Below are positions 15,689-64,000 of a stretch of DNA of 64,000 nt, in pieces (the stretch's first letter is position 1; each line of letters begins with the position of its first letter). Source of the DNA: Bacillus mojavensis RO-H-1 = KCTC 3706 (lineage in GTDB: Bacteria > Bacillota > Bacilli > Bacillales > Bacillaceae). The notes below the pieces were generated by a model. The model did not search any database. It had not been told where the DNA came from and saw only the letters and a program-made list of their open reading frames with translations. A program made the position numbers and the translations under genes. The DNA lies in contig NZ_JH600303.1 of the NCBI RefSeq assembly GCF_000245335.1, positions 1 to 64,000 on the forward strand, in the 5' to 3' direction.

Positions 15689-16433
15689 GAATGGATTCAC
15701 TCCCCATAATGTAAATATCTGAAAAATTCCGCTCCTGCTCAATCAAAATCAGCTGATTTTTCATCAGTTCTAAAACTGCCAGGAAAGTGACAACTAAATG
15801 TTCTTTTTGCTCATATGAAAAAAGATCCATAAAGTTAATTCTTTTCCCTTTTGATTTCAGGCTGTGGACGATTTCATTCATTCTGTCTTCGATTGGTATT
15901 TCCTGTCTTGTAATTGTTGTTTCCATCGGCCTTGTTATTTTTTTTCGCTTCAGCACTTTTTGAAAAGCGCCAATCATATCGTATACCGTGACTGACAGCT
16001 TTTGCTCCGATTGTTTCACTTCTTTTGCATATTCGCTCAAATCACTCGGCGGTTTCGTAAATGATTTTTGTCTTTCTTCTTCCCGTTCCTTTAATTCCTT
16101 CGCCGCGTCTTTATATTTTCTATACTCAATGAGCTTTTCAATCAGTTCCTCCCGTGGATCTTCTTCCTCAAGAAATTCATCCTCAAACAGCTCTTCCTCT
16201 TGCTTCGGGAGCAACATTCTGCTTTTAATACTGAGCAGTGTTGCAGCCATCACCAAATACTCGCTGGCGATATCAAGCTCAAGCACACGCATCGTATGTA
16301 CATATAATAAATATTGTTCAGTAATCTTCGCCACGGGTATATCATATATGTCAATTTCAAGACGATTGATTAAATGAAGCAGCAGGTCCAATGGGCCTTC
16401 AAACGTATCAATTTTCACTTGATATTCTTCCAT
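15678..16433 (-). CDS. scpA: Segregation and condensation protein ScpA
   Basis: Kleisin subunit of Smc-ScpAB. The 251-aa product begins [19 protein letters not shown], the conserved kleisin N-terminus that binds the Smc neck, has an acidic central linker ([19 protein letters not shown]) and a C-terminal winged helix that binds the Smc head. The start at 16433 is the second of two adjacent ATGs after GGTGAG and gives the length known in B. subtilis. Confidence 0.97.
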
Positions 16434-18345: not shown

Positions 18346-19542
18346 TTAGAAATGAAGTAAATGACCTAGTTTGTTCATCTTTGTTTGCAAATATTTTTTG
18401 TTATGCTCTTTGGCCTCCATTTGAAGCGGCACTCTTTCTGTAATGCTGAGTCCATAGCCTTCAAGTCCGGCAATTTTCCGCGGATTATTCGTCAAAAGCT
18501 TCATATTCCGCACGCCGAGATCGCGTAAAATTTGAGCACCAATGCCGTAATTGCGCAAATCAGGCAAAAAGCCGAGCGCCTCATTAGCTTCTACAGTGTC
18601 ATATCCTTCTTCCTGAAGCTTATAGGCTTTTAACTTATTAATCAGACCGATGCCCCGGCCTTCTTGGCGGAGATACAAAAGCACTCCCCGGCCTTCTGCG
18701 GCAATTTGCGTTAGCGCGGCGTGAAGCTGCGGGCCGCAGTCACAGCGATGAGACCCAAACACATCACCTGTGAGACACTCTGAATGAACCCGGACCAATA
18801 CTGGTTCTTCATTAAACGGCACATCTCCCATCACAAATGCGACATGCTCTTTTCCGTCGATCTCATTTGTGTATCCGTACACCTTAAATGTGCCAAAATC
18901 AGTCGGCAAGGTAATATCGACTTCCCGCTCTACAAGTGTTGTCAAGTTGTAGCGGTACTCAATTAAATCTTTAATGGTGATCATTTTTAATTGATGCTTT
19001 TTCGCAATTTCTATCAGCTCAGGTACTCTTGCCATCGTTCCGTCTTCATTCATAATTTCGCAAATGACGCCTGCTCCCTGAGAACCGCAAGCTTCAGCAA
19101 GATCGACTGCCGCTTCTGTATGGCCCGCTCTTTTCAGAACACCTCCCTTTTTCGCAATCAGGGGAAAAATGTGCCCCGGACGCTGAAAATCTGCCGGCAC
19201 TGAACTGCTGTCCAGCAAAGCTTTGACAGTAAATGATCTTTCCTGTGCGCTGATTCCCGTTTTTGTCTTACGGTGGTCAATGCTTACTGTAAAAGCAGTG
19301 TGGTGGGAATCTGTATTGTGCTCAACCATAGGATGAAGATCGAGCCTGTCAGCGATTTCCTCACTGAGAGGCGTGCAAATCAGCCCTCTTCCGTGCGTCG
19401 CCATAAAGTTAATCACTTCAGGAGTCGCATGCTCCGCAAGAGCCACAAAGTCTCCTTCATTTTCTCTGTCTTCATCATCAACAACAATGATGACTTCGCC
19501 TTTTTTTAAAGCGTCTAATGCCTCTTCTATCGGATGAAACAT
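18346..19542 (-). CDS. ribBA: Bifunctional GTP cyclohydrolase II / DHBP synthase RibBA
   Basis: Starts both branches of riboflavin synthesis. Residues about 1-200 are 3,4-dihydroxy-2-butanone 4-phosphate synthase ([26 protein letters not shown]); residues about 205-398 are GTP cyclohydrolase II with the zinc cysteines in [17 protein letters not shown] and [12 protein letters not shown]. The 398-aa length is normal for the fused enzyme (called ribA in older B. subtilis papers). Confidence 0.98.
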
Positions 19543-23196: not shown

Positions 23197-23460
23197 ACGT
23201 AGCCCCTTTTCAAAAAAATAACATTGATATTATTTCATTTTACTACAAGTGCCTTTTGTGATGAAACATGTCAACTTTAAAATTTGTTTAAATTTTCCCC
23301 ATGGTGATTGAACACAGTTATGATTTACAACCAATCGAAACATAGCTATAGGATTCAACTCAAATCTCTCAATGCCTTCTATATCTACCTGGTAATCCCG
23401 GAATCCTTGAAAACGTCTGTTTGTTTCCTGTCACAACCAGATACAGGCTGTAAGCGAAAA
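23197..23460. other. Intergenic stretch between the zinc-ribbon gene and ppiB
   Basis: No gene supported. It is A/T rich, with only short frames lacking ribosome binding sites; presumably it holds the promoter of the zinc-ribbon gene. Confidence 0.5.
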
Positions 23461-48843: not shown

Positions 48844-49750
48844 TTGAAAAGATTCCTTTTAGCTGTCGGCGCTGTCTTGGCAGCTGTAGCTGCTATCGGT
48901 ATTTGTTTTACAAATATCATTATGTTCATAAAGAAAAAAACCGACGAAGAGATTATAAAAAGAGAAACAGATGATGGGCATGATGTATTTGAATCTTTTG
49001 ACCGCATGGAGAAAACGGCTTTTGTGATTCCATCGGCTTACGGATATGACATAAAAGGCTACTATGTTGCACCACACGATACCTCAAAAACAATGATCAT
49101 CTGCCACGGCGTGACCGTGAATATATTGAACTCTCTCAAATATATGGATTTATTTCTTGATCTCGGCTGGAATGTGGTGATTTACGATCATCGCCGGCAC
49201 GGACAAAGCGGCGGAAAGACTACAAGCTATGGTTTTTATGAAAAGGATGATTTAAACGAGGTCGTCAAATGGGTCAAAGACAAAATCGGTAAACGCGGAT
49301 TGGTTGGAATCCACGGTGAATCAATGGGAGCAGTGACTGCCCTGCTGTATGCAGGGGCACATCCTGACGATGGCGCTGATTTTTTATATTGCCGATTGCC
49401 CGTTTGCAAGCTTTGAGGAACAGCTTGCGTATCGTCTAAAAGTGGAATACCGGCTGCCTTCCTGTCCGATCCTCCCCATTGCCGACTCCTTTTTGCGGTT
49501 CAGGGACGGCTACCGCGCACGCGATGTATCCCCGCTTGCCGTCATCAATACCATCGAAAAGCCGGTTCTCTTTATTCACAGCAGGCACGATGATTATATT
49601 CCTGTTTCTGCAAGCGAGCGGCTTTATAAAAAAAAGCCCGGTCCAAAGGAACTCTATATTGCTGAAGCTGGAGAACACGCCATGTCATATACAAAAAATC
49701 GGGACACGTATAGAAAAACCGTGCAAGCCTTTTTAGACAAAATAACGTAA
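48844..49750 (+). pseudogene. yqkD: Alpha/beta hydrolase YqkD, frameshifted by one extra T
   Basis: Membrane-anchored hydrolase: N-terminal helix (KRFLLAVGAVLAAVAAIGIC), HGVTVNILN oxyanion region, nucleophile elbow IHGESMGAV, and C-terminal HSRHDDYIPVSA (Asp) and GEHAMSY (His). The first part reads to about residue 180; the rest is in another frame. Six T at 49380-49385 should be five (DGADFYIADCPF). Start is TTG at 48844 behind AAAGGTG. About 302 aa once corrected. Substrate unknown. It is notably diverged from 168. Confidence 0.85.
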
Positions 49751-51735: not shown

Positions 51736-52206
51736 TCATATGTTTTTCACAAAAAGAACCCTGTCTTGGCCCGGTCCATCGTAATTTGCAAATACTGAGA
51801 TGCCATTTACTGTTTTGCTGCCTTTTTCAATCTCAAACCCAAGTCTTGTATGATACGCGATTGACACCTTATTTACCGGGGATGTGACGCACTTTACCCG
51901 GGTGCATCCCCTCTGCTTAACCGTTTCAATAAACACATCGTATAATTGTTTTCCAATTTGCATTTTTCTGAAATCTGGATGCACACCGGAAAAATGGATG
52001 TATGCCGTTACAGGATCTGATTGCGATTGAAATCCGATTAAAAATCCAGTCATGCTGTTTTGTTCATGTGTAATAAAGCTGGTGTCCTGAAAATGTTCAA
52101 AAAATAATCGCGGGAGTTTTTCTTTCAGCTGCCTGCCGCCCCACCATTCATTCATCACAGACGTTACCATTTCATAATCTGAAGACGTGATTGTTCGAAT
52201 ATCCAT
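51736..52206 (-). CDS. yqjY: GNAT acetyltransferase YqjY
   Basis: A 156-aa acetyltransferase: [20 protein letters not shown] is the acetyl-CoA loop and [18 protein letters not shown] the C-terminal strand. The ATG at 52206 follows GGAGGGAGAAATCGT; the 16-codon longer frame runs over the site. First gene of yqjY-yqjZ-yqkA-yqkB-yqkC. Confidence 0.9.
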
Positions 52207-52359
52207 TACGATTTCTCCCTCCGTCTGGCAAAACGAATGTTTCTTTTTTCTCACAATATAAAAATTATATTTTGCCTGACTGGAATTGTAAATGCCTTCT
52301 TTTCTGTATCATACGTTTTCAGACTGCTGAGGGAACATGTTTGCTATTTTTCATACCTA

Positions 52360-52391
52360 GTTCTCCCCCTCCAGCCGCCGGGAGGGAGAAC
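52360..52391. repeat. GC-rich perfect-edged inverted repeat between yqjY and the yqjX remnant
   Basis: GTTCTCCCCCTCC, loop AGCCGCC, GGGAGGGAGAAC. It is far more GC-rich than its surroundings and has no T-run on either side. It is probably a factor-independent terminator remnant or mRNA-end hairpin of yqjX. Confidence 0.6.
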
Positions 52392-52393
52392 AT

Positions 52394-52507
52394 TTACAGA
52401 AAAATATCAAGCACCTGATCAAGTCTTAGCTTACAGAGCTTGCCGGCGTCTCCTTTGATCCACACTGTCTTTTCAAACTCCTCATAGCGGCAGATTTTCC
52501 CTAGCTT
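52394..52507 (-). pseudogene. yqjX: 3' end of yqjX (YolD-like), joined to coaA sequence
   Basis: The minus strand reads open as KLGKICRYEEFEKTVWIKGD and AGKLCKLRLDQVLDIFL, then stops. The shape (IxG turn, then L-x-L-x-x-V-L-D-I end) fits the C-terminus of YolD-family proteins that accompany Y-family polymerases, and yqjX is the expected neighbour of yqjY. Upstream of about 52507 the sequence switches to coaA. The N-terminal part of yqjX and the C-terminal part of yqjW are absent from the window. Confidence 0.65.
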
Positions 52508-52957
52508 TCAGGAAATCCTTTTCTTGACAGCAAGTTTTTCTTTTTTCAGCTCAGCTGTAGGAAATAAAAAGCCGTCTGTCGTGATCAGGCTGACCTTGGG
52601 CCGATCCGGCAAACGTGAAAGCAGCTTCTGCAAAATCCGCGCTGTCGTGCTTTTCCCGACAGCGACACTGCCGGCAATACCAATGATAAACGGAATTTTG
52701 GCTGAATGAGGGTGCTTCAAGAAAACATTCACATGCTTATTTCGCTCGGCAGCGGACTTGACATGCAAATGAAGCAGACGAACAAGCGGAACATAGATCG
52801 TCTCCACTTCTTCTACGGATAAATGATCATTCAGCCCTTCAACAGCTTTTGCCTCTTCTTCAGAAACAGCAATCGACAAATGGCCTCCAAATCCTGACCA
52901 AGACTGCCGGCTGTGCTGTGTATATAAAGTATGTAAATTAAGCTCTTTATTTTTCAC
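52505..52957 (-). pseudogene. coaA: N-terminal half of pantothenate kinase CoaA, displaced and frameshifted
   Basis: First step of coenzyme A synthesis. Residues 1 to about 145 are intact, with the P-loop [18 protein letters not shown] and [18 protein letters not shown]. Near 52535-52546 a run of A carries one extra base; past it the true frame reads [10 protein letters not shown] and then sequence changes to yqjX. The rest of the gene is at 59434-59915, 6.5 kb away in the same orientation. An approximately ten-codon piece between the two is missing. As written no functional CoaA can be made here. Confidence 0.88.
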
Positions 52958-53040
52958 TGTTTACACCTGACTCTCTGTAGCTTTAAACAAACGCTTACAA
53001 AGATTGTAACGGAAAACATTCCTACTGTCTGCTTATTTTT

Positions 53041-54393
53041 TCAATTTATCTTTTTTAACAAGTCAGCACCGATTCGGTTATATGCAGCCATTTCTTCTTT
53101 CGGAACCATACTGCCTCCCGTTCCCCAGACGACATGTACGGCATTTTTCATGCTGTGCCGCAGATCATTTTCAGACATGTAGTGTTTCCCGGTTTCCGCT
53201 AGAAACAGCTGAACAGGTCCGAACATGCCGGCAAGCGCAGACGGCTCTAAATGCTTATTTTCAGATAAAGCCAGCAAATGAAGCAAGGCATACAGCGTTT
53301 CGTCTTCGATAGTATAACAGCCGCTCAGCAAAGGTTCTATCAGATTGCCGACAAATCCTGACGGGCGCCCAACGGCAAGCCCGTCAGCAGCCGTTACATT
53401 ATCCAAGCCGATATCCTGTACAGAGATCCGATCATGCAGGCCTGAATATAGACCTAAGAGCATAGACGGTGAATGGGTTGGCTCCCCGAAAAATACATGG
53501 ACATGGTTTCCGTACAGGAGCTTCAGTCCAAATGCCACACCGCCCGGCCCTCCGCCGACTCCGCAAGGCAAATACACAAACAGCGGTGTTTCAGGACCAG
53601 GCTCGATATTCATAAAGCTGAGCTGCGTTTTTAATCGACTGGCCGCTGCCGCAAATCCCAGGAACAGATGACGGGAATGTTCATCATCAATAAAATAACA
53701 GAATGGGTCTTGTTCCGCCTGCCGCCGTCCTTCTTTAACCGCTTCACTGTAATCTGATTCGTACTCAATGACAGTGACACCCTTTTTGCGAAGTAAATCC
53801 TTCTTCCACTGTTTAGCGTCGGAGGACATATGCACCGTCACGCGAAAGCCTAGTTTGGCGCCAATGATGCCGATGCTTAAACCAAGGTTTCCTGTTGAGC
53901 CGACAGCAATGGAATAGCGGGAGAAAAATGAAGTAAACCGCTCTTCGTGCAAGACGCGATAATCGTCTGTTTCCTTAAGCATTCCTTCTTGAAGCGCCAG
54001 CTCCTCCGCATGCTTCAGCACTTCATAAATACCGCCACGGGCTTTAATCGATCCCGAAATCGGAAGCTCATGATCACACTTTAAAAGCCATCTCCCCGGA
54101 AATGTTTCGCCATACACTTCCTCCAGCTTCTTTTTCATATGGCGTATTTCAAAAAGCGGCGATTCAATCATCCCTTCGGCGGCTTTTGTTTCCGGAAATG
54201 CCTCTGCAATATAAGGAGCAAAGCGCCGAAGTCTTTTGTCCGCCTCGTCTATCTCACATTCCCACTCAGCCGCTTGTAATGCCACCCCCTCTTTCTTGCC
54301 GGGATTAGCCCAGAATACCGGTCGGGCATCAATCAGTTTCTGAATAAATGGATCTTTTATCAGGTCACGCAGAGTTTCTTGATTTATTGACAT
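53041..54393 (-). CDS. dsdA: D-serine dehydratase DsdA
   Basis: PLP enzyme deaminating D-serine to pyruvate. The 450-aa protein has the PLP lysine Lys117 in [11 protein letters not shown], a glycine-rich phosphate loop ([12 protein letters not shown]) and [15 protein letters not shown]. Full length. It lies between yqjQ and coaA as in B. subtilis (older name yqjR). Confidence 0.95.
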
Positions 54394-54437
54394 CAGCGAT
54401 TTCTCCTTCCTTTAACAACTATATCTCTTTATAAAAA

Positions 54438-54481
54438 ACTGCCTGCAAACACACCAAAAGGCGTCTCACACAGGCAGTTCC
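54438..54481 (-). terminator. Terminator after yqjQ
   Basis: AACTGCCTG and CAGGCAGTT stem with a long loop, followed on the minus strand by TTTTTTAT. Confidence 0.78.
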
Positions 54482-54485
54482 ATGC

Positions 54486-55265
54486 TTATTTTTTCATGAG
54501 CACCCGTCCAGCCAGCTTTTCCACAAGTGCTGGAAACATCTGATATAGCTTTGTTCCGGCATTCATCAAACGAGGAAGATTGATTTCACGTTTGTTCGTC
54601 ATAATGGCAGACGTGATTTGTGCTGCCACATCATCTGGGTCAAGCATCCAGCGTCCGACATTTTTGACATAGTCTCCGCTTTTATCAGCGATAGAAAAAA
54701 AGTCAGTCTGAATCGGCCCTGGATTGACTGTCGTCACATAGACGCCCGTGCCCGCCAGTTCCATACGCAAAGCGTTTGAATAGCCGAGCACAGCATGTTT
54801 TGTCGCTGAATAAAGGCTGGATTTCGGCGTAGCAATTTTCCCTGCTTGAGAGGCAATATTAATGATATGTCCGCTTTTTTGCTCAAGCATATGCGGAAGA
54901 ACAGCTTTTGTACAGGCAATCAGACCGAAAACATTGACATCAAACATTGATTTCATTTCATCTAGGGTCGAATCTAAAACCGTTTCAAAAATACCAAAGC
55001 CAGCATTATTGATCAGCACATCAACCGGACCGATCTGATCACGGACAAGGGTGATATCTTCAAGACGGGAGACATCCAGAGGAAAAATATCACACTGTCC
55101 GCTCCATTCCTCGGTCATTTTTCTTTTGATTTCCTTCAAACGATCCTCACGTCTTGCCGACAGCAAAACATGGGCTCCTTCAGCCGCACATAAATAAGCG
55201 ATTCTTTCTCCAAGCCCTCCTGAAGCACCTGTAATCCAAATACGCTTGCCAGCTATATTTTTCAC
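54486..55265 (-). CDS. yqjQ: Short-chain dehydrogenase YqjQ
   Basis: A 259-aa SDR oxidoreductase: cofactor loop [22 protein letters not shown], catalytic Ser and [15 protein letters not shown] with Tyr-x-x-x-Lys. The substrate is unknown. A GTG at 55265 with GAGAGG upstream gives the known length; a GTG three codons earlier overlaps the yqjP stop. Probably cotranscribed with yqjP. Confidence 0.92.
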
Positions 55266-55270
55266 CCTGG

Positions 55271-56232
55271 TCACCTCTCTATTGCTCTAAAGTATGCGGT
55301 ATTTCCATCCCAATATGACGTGATGCCTGCTTCGGCCGCCAATATATCAAGATGCCCAACCGTTTCTGACATCGTTAAAAACAACTCTTTTTCATAAACA
55401 GCAGGAAAGAGCTGCTGACAAACCTGAAAAGCGGTAAGCGGTTTTTCCGACAGCATGTGACGCACATCCTTGGTCCGGCTGCTCTGCTTGTCAAACCGCT
55501 TCTTGATCAGCGCTCGTACATTGCTAATCGTATCGCCATGACCGGGAAACACTGTGTTCGGGGCAAGTTCAGACAGCCTCCGCAGCGACCGCTGATAATC
55601 CAGTAAAGGCTCCGTTCTTTTTTCCCCCGTTTTTGGTGCTTCAAGAATCGGGTTAGACGAGCTGTTCGCCAGCAGCAAATCACCGCCAAGGATTCTTCCG
55701 GTCTTTTCATGAAAGAGAACAATATGCGACTCTGCATGTCCGGGCATCTCCAGAACAGTCCAGTCATCCATCCCGTTAATTTTCATCCCTTCCGTCACCG
55801 TTTGGGTCAAGGATCTTGTACAGGAAAATGCGTACGCCGACCGGATAAGCCTTTCTGCTTTCACATCATCAAATGGAACGCCTAACTCAGGCAGGAGCTT
55901 TTGAAAAAAATGTTTTTGCCACTCCATAAATGCCTTGTCTCTGCTGATATATGGTTCGTTAAACGGATGTCCAATCACTTTAATGTCATCAAGAAAAAAC
56001 AATCAAGCAACCCTGCATGATCCGCGTGATGGTGAGTCAGCACGATCTGCTCAATATCTGACATTTCTATATGTACAGCGGCAAGCTGCTCTTTTAGGGC
56101 TGCAGCAGCCTCTTTGGTTTTCGGTCCACAATCGATCAGTGTCAGCGCATCACCTTTTACTAAGTAAACGATAACATCACCGACGGCAAACGGTGTCGGG
56201 ACGCGAATCGGAATGATATCTGCAGTTGTCAT
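55271..56232 (-). pseudogene. yqjP: Metallo-beta-lactamase-fold hydrolase YqjP, frameshifted by one missing base
   Basis: Zinc hydrolase of unknown substrate. The first part has the metal motif VLTHHHADHAGLLD; the second reads FFLDDIKVIGHPFNEPY, then MPGHAESHIVLFHE, GGDLLLANSSSNP and FPGHGDTI. The break is at the run of six A at 55994-55999 (plus strand), where seven would restore the frame. About 320 aa when corrected. The ATG at 56232 follows AAGGAGCAAAAGA. The next gene, yqjQ, overlaps its stop region. Confidence 0.88.
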
Positions 56233-56330
56233 TCTTTTGCTCCTTGTCTTCATTCATTACTCATATTTTAGTCTTTTTCTCGGTCTTGTGTCATTATTGC
56301 CGTATGAGAACGGCCCTTTTGAAAAAGCTA

Positions 56331-56606
56331 TTGACATTAGCTTGTCCCCCATTGCATAATGAACAACAACTAAAATGAGAACCATTGGAACGCTATGACG
56401 AGGAATAGTATACAGGCAATGGCCAGAGAGAGCGATATCCCCAGGCTGAAAGGTATCGCGGCCCGCTTGTTTGTAGAACCTGCCCTCAGAGCGGTTAGGA
56501 AAACCTAAACGTTTCCCGCGTTACGGGATTTGAGCTGAGCACAAGTTGTGCTAATGAGGGTGGTACCGCGAGCCTTTTCGTCCTTTACGTGATGAAAAGG
56601 TTTTTT
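56331..56606 (+). promoter_or_regulatory. Promoter and T-box leader of proI
   Basis: TTGACA at 56331-56336 and CATAAT at 56355-56360 form the promoter. The leader holds stem I with AGAGAG and CGATATCC elements, a likely specifier triplet CCT at 56479-56481 (proline) in GTAGAACCTGCC, the T-box AGGGTGGTACCGCG at 56557-56570 and a terminator (CCTTTTCGTC ... GATGAAAAGG then TTTTTT to 56606). Uncharged tRNA-Pro should allow read-through into proI. Confidence 0.93.
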
Positions 56607-56632
56607 GTTGTTCTGATAGAAGGAGGATATCC

Positions 56633-57469
56633 ATGAAAAAGATAGGATTTGTCGGCGCCGGGTCCATGGCTGAAGCTATGATCAACGGTTTTTTGCAAAG
56701 CGGCATTACAAAACCTGAAAATATTTATATCACAAACAGGTCAAATGAAGAGAGACTCAATGAATTAAAGGAAATGTACGGCGTGCGACCATGCAGGGAT
56801 AAGAGCAAGTTTTTCACACAAACTGATATCGTCGTTCTTGCTTTTAAGCCTAAGGATGCGGCAGAGAGCATTGACAGCATTCGTCCTTATATGAAGGATC
56901 AGCTTGTCATTTCTGTGCTTGCAGGCCTTACCATCGAAACCATTCAGCATTATTTCGGCAGAAAGCTTGCTGTCATACGGGTGATGCCGAATACTTCAGC
57001 TGCCATCAGAAAATCAGCAACCGGATTTTCCGTAAGCGCTGAAGCAAGCCAAGACGATATCACAGCGGCTAAAGCATTCCTAGAAACAATCGGTGAGGCC
57101 ACATTGGTTGAGGAGCAGCACCTTGATGCCGTTACCGCGATAGCAGGCAGCGGCCCCGCTTACCTGTATCGCTATATTGAAGCGATGGAAAAAGCGGCGC
57201 AAAAGGTCGGTTTAGATGAGGAAACGGCAAAAAAACTGATCCTGCAGACAATGGCAGGCGCGACAGATATGCTTCGCCAAAGCGGAAAACAGCCGGCGCA
57301 GCTGCGCAAGGAGATTACGAGCCCTGGGGGAACAACAGAGGCAGGCCTTCGCGCTTTAACGGAGGCCCGCTTTGAAGAAGCAATCATTCATTGTATTGAA
57401 GAAACGGCCAAACGAAGCGCTGAAATCAAAGAGCAATTTGCCGGAGCCGCTTTAGAAAAGCATTTTTAG
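56633..57469 (+). CDS. proI: Pyrroline-5-carboxylate reductase ProI
   Basis: Last step of proline synthesis, NADPH-dependent. The 278-aa protein begins with the Rossmann loop GFVGAGSMAEAM, and has VRVMPNTSAAIRKSATG and the C-terminal signature ITSPGGTTEAGLRALTEARF. The ATG follows AGGAGGATATCC. It is the only plus-strand gene amid dsdA-yqjQ-yqjP and yqjN. T-box controlled by proline supply. Confidence 0.97.
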   Translation: MKKIGFVGAGSMAEAMINGFLQSGITKPENIYITNRSNEERLNELKEMYGVRPCRDKSKFFTQTDIVVLAFKPKDAAESIDSIRPYMKDQLVISVLAGLTIETIQHYFGRKLAVIRVMPNTSAAIRKSATGFSVSAEASQDDITAAKAFLETIGEATLVEEQHLDAVTAIAGSGPAYLYRYIEAMEKAAQKVGLDEETAKKLILQTMAGATDMLRQSGKQPAQLRKEITSPGGTTEAGLRALTEARFEEAIIHCIEETAKRSAEIKEQFAGAALEKHF

Positions 57470-57479
57470 AGAAAAACAT

Positions 57480-57513
57480 AAGACAGAAGACAATGCGCTT
57501 TCTGTCTTCTTTA
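57480..57513. terminator. Terminator after proI
   Basis: AAGACAGAAG ACAATGCG CTTTCTGTCTT followed by CTTTATCC; convergent yqjN ends a few bases on. Confidence 0.8.
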
Positions 57514-57515
57514 TC

Positions 57516-58028
57516 CTAAGACTGGCTGGCAGCTTCTGATTGTTTTAATAATGCAGAGATTGTAAAGGAAAGCAAGTCGGGAAGCACCTCAAAGGAATAA
57601 GGCACATACAGTCGTTCCGTCCATTTGTGCGGGTCTTTTCCAGACGGGCCGACATTTAATACCGGAACATACAGCGCCTCGTCTTCCCTGCTTGGAAGTG
57701 AGTATCCTCTGTTAAAGAGCGGCATATTGCTTGTGTATGCACCAACATCCTGTTTTTCCAGCTGAAGATAGCTTAAATCCGAGAGCCCTGGGAAATACTG
57801 AACCTCCCGTAAAGCAATGCCGTACCTATCAGCTGCATATTGAATGAGCTTGCCGGCAGTATTCTTGATTACCGGATCGTTCTTTGATGACACCGCCGGA
57901 TAAAACGGAGGGCTATAAAAGAGAACAATGAGCGGCGCATCTTCCTTACACAGCGCAGCGAGTTCTGATACAATTTTAGTCGAAAAATCTCTGTCTCCAA
58001 GGTCTCCCCTGTTTGCATAGGTGAAATT
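57516..58028 (-). pseudogene. yqjN: C-terminal part of yqjN, joined to yqjV at its upstream edge
   Basis: About 168 codons reading FTYANRGDLGDRDFSTKIVS to the end (LLSFTISALLKQSEAASQS), the C-terminal third of the M20-type peptidase YqjN. The upstream reading frame stops being YqjN at about 58025, where yqjV begins on the other strand. The N-terminal portion lies at 61860-62785 in the same orientation; roughly 60 residues between them seem absent. Confidence 0.82.
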
Positions 58029-58830
58029 CAATATCGGCGTTGTCTTCGGCCCTGTGCTGGGTCTGTACTTTGGTTCATCACAATCTACCGCTCCTTTTTT
58101 GGTGCCCGCAGTGATTTATGGGATGTACGGTGTGATCCTTGCCATCCAATTTAAAAAGCATCCACCCGCGACATTAGAACAATCCAGAAATATGAACGTT
58201 CGGGAAGCGTTTATGGTAACGCAAAAGGATCGTCTTTTTACAGTTGCTCTTATCGGCATTACACTATCCATCTTCGGCTTTTCGCAGTTCAGCTCTACAT
58301 TCCCGCAATATATGGCGCAAAATCCTTTTATCGAAGATGGGACAAAATTGTACGGCTGGATGCTGACATTAAACGCAATTGTTGTTTTGGCAACACAGTT
58401 TCCCATCGTCTACCTTGGTAAACGGTTTTCGCCGCTTTGCTCCCTGATGCTCGGCAATATCATGATCAGCGCCAGCATGATGATCCTTACCATGTCACAC
58501 GGCGTTTCTTCACTTGTTATCATTGTGGTTGCATTTACAGTTGGAGAAGTGCTCTTATTCTGTATGATGGATTTGTTTGTAGACCAGATTGCAAAACCCG
58601 GATTAAAAGGAACGTATTTCGGAGCGATCGGCTTTTCGCAGTTTGGGAATGTGATTGGCCCTTGGGCAGGCGGCTTATGTATCGATATATTTGGCGCCGG
58701 GCATCCAAGTTCCATTTTTTCTGTCCTTAGCGGCATCACCCTGCTTGGCCTGCCGTTTTTAGCGTTTGCCTATCGGAGGATGAAAGCAGGAATCACTGAG
58801 CAGCAACCCGGACTGGGGAAGCCGCTTTAA
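58025..58830 (+). pseudogene. yqjV: C-terminal two-thirds of MFS transporter YqjV, joined to yqjN
   Basis: Opens with NIGVVFGPVLGLYFGSS (fifth-helix region of a major facilitator) and runs to LAFAYRRMKAGITEQQPGLG. About 268 codons with seven to eight membrane helices, lacking the N-terminal four. Any start codon here would come from the antisense of yqjN. The N-terminal part is at 61456-61860. Confidence 0.85.
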
Positions 58831-58840
58831 CACAAGAAGA

Positions 58841-58863
58841 CGGGAGAGAATCGCTCTCTCCCG
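58841..58863. terminator. Hairpin between yqjV and yqjU
   Basis: CGGGAGAG AATCGCT CTCTCCCG followed by CAAAAACG. A stable stem without a U-run; may end yqjV messages weakly or protect yqjU mRNA. Confidence 0.5.
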
Positions 58864-58883
58864 CAAAAACGAGGTGATGAAAT

Positions 58884-59045
58884 ATGAATATAGGTGATAT
58901 CTTCTTTCAGCTGATCGTGTTTTTCATGATTGCCGCTGTTATCTCGGCGGCTATCATCGGCTCTAAATATGCGAAAAACCGGAAAGCACAACTGGACCGA
59001 ATTGAAAAAAAGCTTAACAGCATGTCCGAAGACCAAAACGATTAA
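58884..59045 (+). CDS. yqjU: YqjU, 53-aa membrane peptide
   Basis: MNIGDIFFQLIVFFMIAAVI then SAAIIGSKYAKNRKAQLDRI and a charged tail. One N-terminal membrane helix and a cytosolic basic helix. The ATG follows GAGGTGATGAAAT. The function is unknown. Its stop overlaps the convergent yqjT stop. Too short for most gene callers. Confidence 0.8.
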   Translation: MNIGDIFFQLIVFFMIAAVISAAIIGSKYAKNRKAQLDRIEKKLNSMSEDQND

Positions 59046-59428
59046 CCGCTTGGGGCAACGAGCTCTACCTTAATCCGGTCAGGGTCCTCACAATAGACTG
59101 CATAATGCCCGTCTCCCCCGGCAAAAGGATGCCGGTCTCGGTACAGCACACGATAGCCTTTTGCCATCAATTTTTCAGTCATCAGGTCGACTTGAAGCCT
59201 GGATTCAGCATGAAACGCGAGATGGTTCAGCCCGACACGGCACCTGTGATATTCCGGCTCTAGATATTCTTCTTTTACCTGAACAATCACAAGGTAAAAG
59301 TGATCTTTCTTCCAGCTGATGCCGGATCTCCATTTTTGAAACTCTTTATAGCCAAGCTCTGCTAAAAACCATCCCCAAAACCGCTTAGACGCTTCCAAGT
59401 CGGAGACATACAGCTCAATATGGTGCAT
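59042..59428 (-). CDS. yqjT: Glyoxalase/VOC-family protein YqjT
   Basis: A 128-aa vicinal-oxygen-chelate fold: HHIELYVSDLEASKRFWGWF, NHLAFHAESRLQVD and YAVYCEDPDRIKVELVAPSG, which supply His and Glu ligands. The substrate is unknown. Two adjacent ATGs (59431 and 59428) follow AGAAGGGTG; the second gives the length known in 168. Its start overlaps the coaA stop. Confidence 0.9.
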   Translation of the reverse strand: MHHIELYVSDLEASKRFWGWFLAELGYKEFQKWRSGISWKKDHFYLVIVQVKEEYLEPEYHRCRVGLNHLAFHAESRLQVDLMTEKLMAKGYRVLYRDRHPFAGGDGHYAVYCEDPDRIKVELVAPSG

Positions 59429-59433
59429 CATGA

Positions 59434-59915
59434 TCACACCCTTCTCACTAACACTTCTTCTACCTTATGCCGGTCTCCCTTTCGCAATATTAAATCTGAC
59501 CTGAATTTAGTCGGCAAAATATTTTCATATAAATTAGGGCGGTTGACACTCTCCCAAATCGAGGTTGCCATCTCGTCAGCCTCCTGGTCAGACAGGTCTT
59601 TAAATTTATGAAAATACGAGTCCGGATTTTGAAAGGCCGTTTCCCGAAGAAGGCGGAAACGCTCTAAATACCAGGTAAGAATCCGGCTTTCGTCCGCATC
59701 TACGTAAATTGAAAAATCAAAGAAATCGGAAACAAAGATGCGGGGGTTTTCCCGGTCATCCTCCAAGGTCGGCGATTGAAGAACATTAATTCCTTCGATG
59801 ATCACGATATCAGCCTGTTCTACAACCTCAAACACACCTTCCTCACGGTCATAGGTTAAATGAGAATAGACCGGGGCCTTTACTCTTTCTTTTTCCTTCG
59901 ACTTTACGTTCATTC
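59434..59915 (-). pseudogene. coaA: C-terminal half of pantothenate kinase CoaA, joined to yqjW
   Basis: Reads VKAPVYSHLTYDREEGVFEV, IVIIEGINVLQSP, FFDFSIYVDADES and ends VEEVLVRRV, the CoaA C-terminus. Just inside the junction the expected NDVKSKEKER is shifted by one extra T at 59909-59910. The N-terminal half is at 52505-52957. About 157 codons present. Confidence 0.88.
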
Positions 59916-60565
59916 TAATCAAGCGGAAAAACCGCAAGCCCGCCGATCGTGCTGATGCCCATTCGATTTAAATGATGTTTCATCCGGCTCCCAACGCCAA
60001 ACATACTCCCTACCGGAAGCGGCCACATCTCGGTTTTCATATTTTCTTTCGTTAATGTAAAAATACCGTTCTTATTCTTTTTGGCAAAATTGTCACACGC
60101 GATCTTGGCGAGCGCTTTATTAGGGCCGATTCCGACCCGGGCATAAATGCCGACCTCCCGCATGATTCTGTCTTGAATGCTTTTGGCAATTTCCTCGGGC
60201 GCCCCAAACAGCTTCTGGCTGCCTGTGATATCCATGAATTGCTCGTCAATGGAATAGGGCTCCACAAGATCTGTATATTCCTCTAAAATGGCGGTGATTT
60301 GCAGTGATACATCAATATACCGCTGCATCCGAGGCCGAAGCACAATCGCTTCAGGGCATTTTTCCTGCGCTTCCCACAGGCGTGAGGCATTGGCTACCCC
60401 TTTTTGTTTCGCCAGCGGGCATGCAGCCAATACAACTCCGCCCCTCCTTTCCGGATCACCCGAAACAATTACCGGCTGATTTTTCAAATGTGGATTTTCC
60501 GCTTTCTCTACAGATGCATAAAACGATTGCATGTCAACGAGAAAAATCACTTTTTCTTTCATCAT
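59915..60565 (-). pseudogene. yqjW: N-terminal half of Y-family DNA polymerase YqjW, joined to coaA
   Basis: SOS-linked translesion-type polymerase (UmuC/UvrX relative). Start ATG at 60565 or 60562 (MKEKVIFLVDMQSFYASVEK) after AGAGGTG. Catalytic carboxylates are present (FLVDMQSFYASVE; PYSIDEQFMDITG). The protein matches YqjW through STIGGLAVFPLD (about residue 215) and then enters coaA sequence and stops; the C-terminal little-finger domain (about 195 aa) is missing. Confidence 0.88.
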
Positions 60566-60579
60566 ACACACCTCTAAAA

Positions 60580-60623
60580 AGAACTTATGTTCGCTTCTGC
60601 TATTATATGCGAAAATACGTTCG
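60580..60623 (-). promoter_or_regulatory. Two LexA boxes flanking the yqjW promoter
   Basis: AGAACTTATGTTCG at 60580-60593 and, on the minus strand, CGAACGTATTTTCG at 60610-60623 each match CGAACnnnnGTTCG with one mismatch. TATAAT (complement of 60602-60607) lies between them. Strong sign of SOS control of yqjW and possibly of the divergent yqzH. Confidence 0.8.
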
Positions 60624-60732
60624 ATTTATACTGGTAAATGATTCTTGTCTGACAGAAAATATGATGCAAGGGTTTGAGAGAAGGAAAACATTTAGTAGAA
60701 TGAAAGCGAACCATAAAGATAGGAGAATCAAA

Positions 60733-60939
60733 ATGGAGAAATTTGTCGAAAAAATGTTGGGACAGGCATTGCGCCAATACGGCCGAAATGTTGCCATTGA
60801 TCCGTTAAGCCCGTATGAAAAACAAAGCCTGAAAGCTGCCTTAGAGGAAAGACAAAATGAAGATCCAGACGAGGACCTGCATGCGCATATAGAGGATATC
60901 ATTTATGACTACGTCACAAACCAAGGGCTGTTTTCTTAG
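60733..60939 (+). CDS. yqzH: YqzH, small SOS-linked protein
   Basis: A 68-aa soluble protein (EKFVEKMLGQALRQYGRNVA; DPDEDLHAHIEDIIYDYVTN) of unknown function, divergent from the LexA-controlled yqjW and listed with the B. subtilis SOS genes as I recall. The ATG follows AGGAGAATCAAA. Upstream in-frame codons to 60304 are antisense of yqjW and rejected. Confidence 0.88.
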   Translation: MEKFVEKMLGQALRQYGRNVAIDPLSPYEKQSLKAALEERQNEDPDEDLHAHIEDIIYDYVTNQGLFS

Positions 60940-61440
60940 TGTCATGCACCTTCATTGTTGGAGAATTTTCGTATATTTGTTTTAGTATGGCCAGAAGGGA
61001 CGCGGCTGATATCAAGGGGAAGCGCCCCTTCTCATATGCGGACGCTCAGGCCCATCAGCATAGTCTTTAATCTGATGCCCGGTCTCACCCAGCATTTCAG
61101 GAACCCTGCCGATATGAGCTACAGCCTGATGAGTCAACGTCTTTAAACGAAATCCGATTGCTCTCCCGCATTCCTCATGTCTTTAAACTGGACAGGCATT
61201 TCTGCAAATGGGAATTACACTTTCATGGTCAGATATAAGCGCCAGACAAAAAAATCGAGTAACTTCAACCTCCACTTCAACGGCTAAACGCCATCGTCAA
61301 CGTGAAACTTGAACCATCAAAAACAAAGGTCATCCTGCGCGCACATAACAAACCCATATAAACCGGTAAGTAAAAATATTTAATCCTCCGTTGGATAAGG
61401 AAATTTTTTCATGTATGATAGAAAAAGATCTTACTAACAG
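60940..61440. other. Unassigned 500-bp stretch between yqzH and yqjV
   Basis: No frame has a ribosome binding site and a recognisable product. Open stretches of 40-60 codons occur on both strands but are broken by stops: plus strand around 61110-61235 (STSLNEIRLLSRIPHVFKLD) and minus strand 61160-61030 (FRLKTLTHQAVAHIGRVPEM). It may be a decayed gene. The yqjV promoter should be near 61400. Confidence 0.4.
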
Positions 61441-61455
61441 GAGAGAACAATAAAC

Positions 61456-61860
61456 ATGAAGACATGGAAAGATATCCACCCAATCAGCTGGACAATTATT
61501 ATCGGAACCATTTTCGGCAGAATGGCAACATCGATGAGCATTCCGTTTTTAGCGATTTATTTAACAGCTGTCCAAGGCGCATCAGCATCCTATGCGGGGC
61601 TTGTCATTGCGGCGAGCTCATCAGTCGGCATCATTGCAAGCTTTTATGGCGGATATATCTCGGACAAATTCGGCAGAAAGAACATGATGCTTGTATCCAT
61701 TTTCGGCTGGATGCTGGTGTTTGCAGGGTTTGCGGCTGCTTCTCACCTCTGGGTATTTTTGTGGTAAATGCGTTAAACGGACTTTGTAAATCACTGTTTG
61801 AACCTGCATCAAAAGCTTTGCTGTCAGATATGACAGCAAGAAAAAAACAAGATTGCTGGT
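61456..61860 (+). pseudogene. yqjV: N-terminal part of MFS transporter YqjV, frameshifted and joined to yqjN
   Basis: The ATG after ACAGGAGAGAACAATAAAC starts MKTWKDIHPISWTIIIGTIF, with four membrane helices and the MFS loop GGYISDKFGRKNMM. The run of five T at 61756-61760 should be six; restoring it continues FVVNALNGLCKSLFEPASKA and LLSDMT. Around 61850-61870 the sequence passes into yqjN (other strand). The remainder is at 58025-58830. Confidence 0.85.
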
Positions 61861-62785
61861 TTTCTCGCGGAGCGCTGCATTGTCAGCACATTAAATAACG
61901 TAACGGCTGTATGCGGTGTTTGGACGGAATATGCCTCTTTCAAGTCCTTTTGCATTAAGTTTACCGGCGGCGGGGTGACTTCCCCGTCAGCCATTTCGCA
62001 GTAATTCACGTTCAGCTCCAGCAGACGATTGATCTCAGAAACCATTAAATTTGCATTTAAACCGGAAAACGGCTCTCCGACATGCGTTTCTATCCCTTTG
62101 CAGAAAAATCCTGCAAGAACCTTGCCAATGCTGCCTGTATACACATATTGCCGCTGGTCGCCCGGAAATTTTTCAAAAATCGGTTCGCTATTCAAACAAG
62201 CAGTGTATGTAAGATGATATTTATGCTTGATTTCTTTCAGTGCAGGAACGGCTTCGATCATTCCTCTTGAATTCACTTCCTCGTCAGGAACCGTAATCAA
62301 AAGGACATTCCCATCAAAATGACCATTCATTGCCCGCTCAAGCATCGACAGCTGAACAGTAAGCCCCGCTTTCATATCCATCGTGCCTCTTCCAAACAGC
62401 CAGTCGCCGCTTTCCGCGTCTGTTCTCACGCGTTCAGGAAGCAACTCTTTTTCTCCAAAAAGGAGTTTAAAAGCTCAGCCGGCTTACAGGCCATATGCTT
62501 GAATTCGCCGTAGTCCTCTATGTCCACGACATCAAAATGGCTCAACAATAGCACTGTCTGTTTGACATCTTTCTTTTTGACAAGCGCCGTCAGAAACGTT
62601 CTGCCGTCTTCCATTGGATGGAGTGTGACATGAGCAGGGTTATTTTGAAAATAAGGCTTGTCCTTTAAAAGATAATAAAGATATTCCGCAAGTGCGGCTT
62701 CTCCTTTCGAACCAGTGACACTTTCGTACTGGACAAGCGAAGTTAAAAGGGTAAGCAAATTATCCTTGGTCTGCCAATTCATCAT
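61860..62785 (-). pseudogene. yqjN: N-terminal part of M20-type peptidase YqjN, frameshifted and joined to yqjV
   Basis: RocB-like M20 metallopeptidase. The ATG at 62785 follows GGAGGGCGGAA. The first part has the metal motif LLSHFDVVDIEDYGEF and breaks at the run of five T (62448-62452, plus strand; six expected), continuing ELLPERVRTDAESGDW, LFGRGTMDMKAG and VPDEEVNSRGM (zinc ligands). Sequence identity to YqjN ends near VLTMQRSAR. The C-terminal part is at 57516-58028. Substrate unknown; an amino-acid deacylase role is usually proposed. Confidence 0.85.
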
Positions 62786-62890
62786 TTCCGCCCTCCTATG
62801 TATAAAAACGCTTCGATTCTAAAAAATAACATGACTCCCTGTCTATTATACAGAAATGTTTGACAAAATCGGATCGTTTGAGCAGTTTAT

Positions 62891-62919
62891 ATGACGGGAA
62901 AGAAATGACTTGTTATAAT
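62891..62919 (+). promoter_or_regulatory. Candidate promoter of yqjM
   Basis: ATGACG at 62891-62896, 17 bases, TATAAT at 62914-62919, 33 bases before the yqjM ATG. Confidence 0.55.
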
Positions 62920-62952
62920 CAACCTCTAAAAACCTTACGGGAGGCGAAAGAA

Positions 62953-63969
62953 ATGGCCAGAAAATTATTCACACCTATGACGATTAAAGATGTAACGTTA
63001 AAAAACCGCATTGTGATGTCACCAATGTGCATGTACTCTTCTCACGAAAAGGACGGAAAGTTACAGCCGTTCCACATGGCTCACTACATAACACGCGCAG
63101 TCGGCCAGGTTGGGTTAATTATTGTGGAAGCATCAGCGGTTAATCCTCAAGGACGCATCACAGACCAAGATTTAGGGATATGGAGCGACGAGCATATCGA
63201 AGGTTTTGCAAAGCTGACTGAGCAGGTAAAAGCGCAAGGCTCAAAAATCGGAATTCAGCTTGCCCACGCAGGACGTAAAGCAGAGCTTGAAGGCGATATT
63301 TTCGCTCCGTCTGCGATTGCGTTTGACGAGCAATCCAGCACACCGGTTGAAATGACAACTGAAAAAGTGAAAGAGACCGTGCAGGAGTTCAAACAAGCAG
63401 CAGCCCGTGCAAAAGAAGCAGGCTTTGATGTGATTGAGATTCATGCGGCACACGGATACTTAATTCATGAATTTTTATCTCCGCTTTCTAACCATCGCAC
63501 AGATGAATACGGAGGCTCACCAGAAAACCGATACCGTTTCTTAAGAGAAATCATTGATGAAGTCAATCAAGTGTGGGATGGTCCTTTATTTGTCCGTGTA
63601 TCGGCTTCTGACTATACAGACAAAGGCTTAAACATCGCGGATCATATCGGTTTTGCAAAATGGATGAAGGAGCAGGGCGTTGATTTAATTGACTGCAGCT
63701 CAGGTGCCCTTGTTCATGCAGACATTAACGTATTCCCTGGCTATCAGGTCAGCTTTGCCGAGAAAATCCGCGAACAGGCTGATATGGCGACTGGTGCTGT
63801 CGGAATGATTACAAATGGTTCAATGGCTGAAGAAATTCTTCAAAATAACCGTGCAGACCTCATCTTTATCGGCAGAGAGCTATTACGCGATCCTTACTTT
63901 GCAAGAACTGCCGCAAAACAGCTCAATACAGATATTCAAGCCCCTGTTCAATACGAAAGAGGCTGGTAA
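62953..63969 (+). CDS. yqjM: NADPH dehydrogenase YqjM (old yellow enzyme family)
   Basis: FMN-dependent ene-reductase, induced by peroxide and electrophiles in B. subtilis. The 338-aa protein starts [20 protein letters not shown]; Cys26 and Tyr28 (SPMCMYSS) and the paired His164/His167 ([12 protein letters not shown]) are the known active-site residues of YqjM. The ATG at 62953 follows GGGAGGCGAAAGAA; a longer frame covering the promoter is rejected. Divergent from yqjN. The last 30 bases of the window, starting TTGAGATTCGAG, may open the next gene. Confidence 0.97.
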
Positions 63970-64000
63970 TCTTGAGATTCGAGATATCCGCGGCTCCGCC

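Follow-up and report, generated by a model that had tools for sequence, protein, structure and literature searches.

The draft genome of Bacillus mojavensis RO-H-1 = KCTC 3706 carries three successive chromosome blocks in reversed order with their strand unchanged. With high confidence, we attribute this arrangement to an error of assembly order, in which three short draft contigs were placed in reverse and joined without gap marks. The DNA that we analyzed, referred to here as the window, comprises bases 1-64000 of contig C27 (104,179 bases) in the 29-contig draft of 3,957,021 bases. Gene names for the locus follow B. subtilis.

Order and strand of the blocks

The window reads A-1-2-3-B, where A and B are the flanks and 1 to 3 are the blocks (Table 1). 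In contrast, all six close genomes that we compared have the native order A-3-2-1-B, with no test piece on the opposite strand: G015, B. subtilis 168 (G004), B. spizizenii TU-B-10 (G012), G020, G023, and G007. Two rows of this comparison, L032 and L118, belong to one genome and were counted once. The closest genome, G015, is approximately 96% identical to the window, and every BLASTN block on its contig C13 lies on the plus strand. Thus, the initial annotation, which had proposed a reversed block order with no strand flips, was correct on both points. It had placed the junctions near 52507, 58025, 59915, and 61860, and the BLASTN alignments refine these estimates to the joins in Table 1. Because indels lie close to J3, its position is good only to within a few bases.

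Table 1. Parts of the rearranged region and the joins between them (window positions; C13 is a contig of G015)
Feature	Content	Positions	Strand	Basis
Left flank A, end	yqjY and 3' end of yqjX; native neighbour is block 3	51736-52501	+	Collinear with G015 C13 to 323863; ORFs
Join J1 (A/block 1)	yqjX onto the middle of coaA; no insert, no overlap	52501-52502		Alignment
Block 1 (5529 bases)	5' half of coaA, dsdA, yqjQ, yqjP, proI, 3' part of yqjN	52502-58030	+	G015 C13 328531-334060
T-box leader (in block 1)	Upstream of proI	56386-56588	+	Rfam, 88.9 bits (gathering score 93)
Join J2 (block 1/block 2)	yqjN onto the middle of yqjV; one-base overlap	58030-58031		Alignment
Block 2 (1888 bases)	3' part of yqjV, yqjU, yqjT, 3' half of coaA	58031-59918	+	G015 C13 326660-328506
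Join J3 (block 2/block 3)	coaA onto the middle of yqjW	59918-59919		Alignment and genome-specific indels
Block 3 (1945 bases)	5' half of yqjW, yqzH, 5' part of yqjV	59919-61863	+	G015 C13 324683-326637
Join J4 (block 3/B)	yqjV onto the middle of yqjN	61863-61864		Alignment and genome-specific indels
Right flank B	5' part of yqjN, yqjM; native neighbour is block 1	61864-64000	+	Collinear with G015 C13 from 334258

Together, the blocks and flanks tile this part of the window without interruption against G015. A comparison with B. subtilis 168, which the initial annotation had suggested, also returns the native order. In BLASTN searches, 168 and B. spizizenii TU-B-10 yield the same blocks, whose breakpoints agree within 13 bases, with block 3 split into two alignment pieces in both. 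From among the matches listed, we also examined four more distant Bacillus loci. Two of these (L035 and L036) contain all eight test pieces in the native order with the yqjW piece on the flipped strand; L033 lacks two test pieces and also has a flipped yqjW piece, and L034 lacks four.

We searched 44 genomes of the genus for 28-base words from J1 and J2, allowing up to three mismatches, and found them only in the window's own. Their absence from the other 43 fits both a misassembly and a real rearrangement, since no second B. mojavensis is among these genomes and distant ones could escape at such stringency. Identity to G015 is 95.5, 94.8, and 94.9% in blocks 1 to 3, 96.1% in the long left flank, and 95.5% in the part of the right flank within the window. 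A B. tequilensis paper (PMC10237388) gives an average nucleotide identity of 96.0% between B. mojavensis and B. halotolerans. Given the similar identity of the window to G015, that genome may be B. halotolerans.

Some features of the window lie apart from the joins. The T-box leader before proI scores below the Rfam gathering threshold in both the window and G015 (77.7 bits in the latter). Between yqzH and yqjV, a stretch of approximately 450 bases (60940-61390) aligns to G015 with many small indels and is unaligned to 168 and B. spizizenii, where stretches of similar length occur; it is a fast-changing region and perhaps a decayed gene. Positions 23300-23345 are also unaligned, with approximately 80 bases more in G015 and approximately 1.8 kb more around this site in 168.

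Cut genes and missing sequence

As the initial annotation had stated, every junction cuts a gene. Five are affected (yqjX, yqjW, yqjV, coaA, and yqjN), and all five are intact reading frames in G015. Pfam searches of these intact copies identify yqjX as YolD-like, yqjW as a Y-family DNA polymerase, yqjV as an MFS protein, and yqjN as an M20 peptidase. In Pfam, coaA matches a kinase family, and NCBIfam classifies it as type I pantothenate kinase; an NCBIfam search with yqjX gave no match.

Relative to G015, the four native boundaries lack 819, 22, 24, and 197 bases. The longest of these losses removes the greater part of yqjX together with the 3' half of yqjW, and the others fall within yqjV, coaA, and yqjN, respectively. 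Only a little sequence had been thought to be missing at each junction, which describes the 22- and 24-base losses well and understates the other two. Searching this draft genome with the 819- and 197-base pieces revealed no copy of either (best E values of 0.8 and 0.2).

The joins themselves are clean. There is no N anywhere in the window, joins included, and the matches to the left and right of each join overlap by only 0-1 base. No repeat of at least 16 bases lies at a join: a search of 52000-62400 returned seven short direct families and three inverted pairs, all of them elsewhere. Nor does any unaligned sequence that could represent an inserted element occur at the joins, which therefore cannot be ascribed to homology or to such an element.

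Contig gaps and indels in the draft

Ten contigs between C19 and C29 follow chromosome order on a single strand when compared to G015 or 168; a further contig, whose sequence reads as N, was excluded from this layout. This regularity suggests that an ordering step probably preceded deposition. The gaps between neighbouring contigs, available for eight pairs, are -4, 26, 843, 71, -3, and 103 bases on G015 and approximately 302 and 11 bases on 168. The losses at the four block boundaries (22 to 819 bases) match this size range (-4 to 843). Among C1-C18, we placed two 12 kb stretches: C1 begins at 3.045 Mb of 168, whereas the best 168 match of C7 is near 0.10 Mb, its other hits being, in our reading, rRNA-like matches. 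The first stretches of six others had no match in the reference pieces compared, as expected for contigs from other parts of the chromosome. Taken with the order of C19-C29, the placement of C1 and C7 indicates that contig numbering seems to follow the chromosome. Across nine contigs, or approximately 340 kb, we found no second misorder against G015 or 168; in the first 140 kb of C29, the match to 168 is patchy beyond approximately 10 kb.

A literature search found no account of how this draft was made. The strain was reportedly sequenced by Sanger shotgun (Earl et al. 2012). Tables in PMC10237388 name B. mojavensis RO-H-1 = KCTC 3706 and AFSI00000000.1, and the tabulated data list 309 pseudogenes for B. 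mojavensis, compared to 88-184 in the other five genomes. Such a count is what a frameshift-rich draft would give.

To describe sequence quality, we counted indels of 1-2 bases present against both G015 and 168, dropping those that were longer or seen against a single reference. The sample consisted of C19, C20, C22, the first 20 kb of C23, C24-C26, and C27 to position 72,505. Both references cover 167,731 bases of it, in which 73 such genome-specific indels occur. Coding sequence in blocks 1-3 has nine in 7,651 bases, compared to 28 in 140,418 bases elsewhere, an approximately six-fold excess. Each block contributes three (in 4,834, 1,494, and 1,323 coding bases for blocks 1, 2, and 3). The short, correctly placed contig C24 is also rich in coding indels, with four in 3,756 bases, the highest value of any segment outside the blocks.

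Indels are also concentrated at two of the joins. Six of the 73 fall no more than 50 bases from one of the eight block ends at the joins, where 0.16 would be expected; the corresponding Poisson figure, 2e-8, is overstated because indels cluster. Three of the six precede J3 within 30 bases, two precede J4 within 27 bases, and one follows J1, leaving the other five flanks with none. When the terminal 40 bases were aligned to G015, the eight junction flanks showed six gap columns, every one of them before J3 or J4, and 10 mismatches, compared to two gap columns and 14 mismatches at 15 true contig ends. Since true contig ends are mostly clean, the poor ends are particular to these short blocks and not a general property of contig ends in the draft, which argues in part against a simple picture of misassembly.

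Genome-specific indels also appear at other sites. Single-base indels interrupt yqkD (near 49380), yqjP (55990-56000), and yqjN (near 62450); the latter two genes are intact in G015, and all three interruptions are probably sequencing errors of the draft. Coding sequence in C20 contains four genome-specific indels within 67 bases (approximately 15950-16010), and that in C23 contains three within 26 bases (approximately 18900-18930). These clusters are possible low-quality seams that were left unmarked and are correctly ordered.

Origin of the reversed order

The reading that best accounts for the order, strand, losses, indels, and lack of homology is that short, poorly covered contigs were set in reversed order. 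We infer contig ends at all four boundaries and a later step that joined them. Four gaps of 22 to 819 bases would have split the draft here into the contigs A, 3, 2, 1, and B. Contig ordering would then have given the three short contigs the right strand and a reversed order, and joining them end to end without gap marks would make five genes appear cut and swapped. The initial annotation had considered wrongly ordered short contigs the easiest explanation, with a real multi-break rearrangement as its alternative; the gap-sized losses, the indels at two of the four joins, and the lack of repeats at the joins lend support to the former. As in contig-order (relocation) misassemblies of draft bacterial genomes, the blocks are bounded by small gaps, have the right strand with the wrong order, and occur in one assembly only; poor sequence at some block ends may be a further resemblance. 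It differs in that the joins contain no N and three successive blocks are exactly reversed. Besides the mostly clean contig ends, three observations count against misordered contigs: C24 is rich in coding indels despite its correct placement; sequences that overlap by 0-1 base, with no N between them, are not ones that an overlap assembler ought to have joined; and the absence of a second misorder in approximately 340 kb means that the error would have happened just once. A 1-in-48 count for the combination of order and strand was set aside as evidence because it is equally valid for random contig placement.

The alternative that four double-strand breaks arose within approximately 10.4 kb of the sequenced strain, and that end joining in a new order cost 22 to 819 bases per boundary, strikes us as improbable. 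End joining also produces N-free, repeat-free joins with 0-1 base overlap and deletions, and the cut genes may be dispensable; in B. subtilis, coaA is backed up by coaX. Several close breaks, shuffled order, and near-blunt joins with losses recall chromothripsis-like clustered rearrangements, from which this locus differs by its lack of strand changes, its indel-rich ends at two joins, and joins known from one assembly. Moreover, a real rearrangement leaves unexplained why indels cluster at J3 and J4 and are so frequent in the blocks, a pattern that resembles poor sequence, and the losses match the ordinary contig gaps of the draft. All three blocks kept their strand, an outcome with a 1 in 8 chance under random rejoining, and nothing in the evidence specifically supports such an event. 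We judge it very improbable that the chromosome was genuinely shattered in yqjX-yqjW, yqjV, coaA, and yqjN, possibly in a spore, and end-joined in reverse. Stepwise change, whether the region was duplicated in tandem and then reduced by deletions or underwent several nested inversions, is hardly credible. Duplication with deletion would preserve strand as observed; nested inversions would need several steps that together happen to return every block to its original strand. The joins have no repeats, and the pieces neither overlap nor recur. We rejected duplication followed by deletion because only 22 and 24 bases separate the pieces at two boundaries, a closeness that independent deletion ends would not reach.

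If three contigs were indeed misordered, the artefact makes coaA, yqjV, yqjW, yqjX, and yqjN look broken in the reference genome of the species and presents users of the draft with false gene neighbourhoods. Were the rearrangement real, it would be a rare example of a bacterial chromosome that was locally shattered and reassembled.
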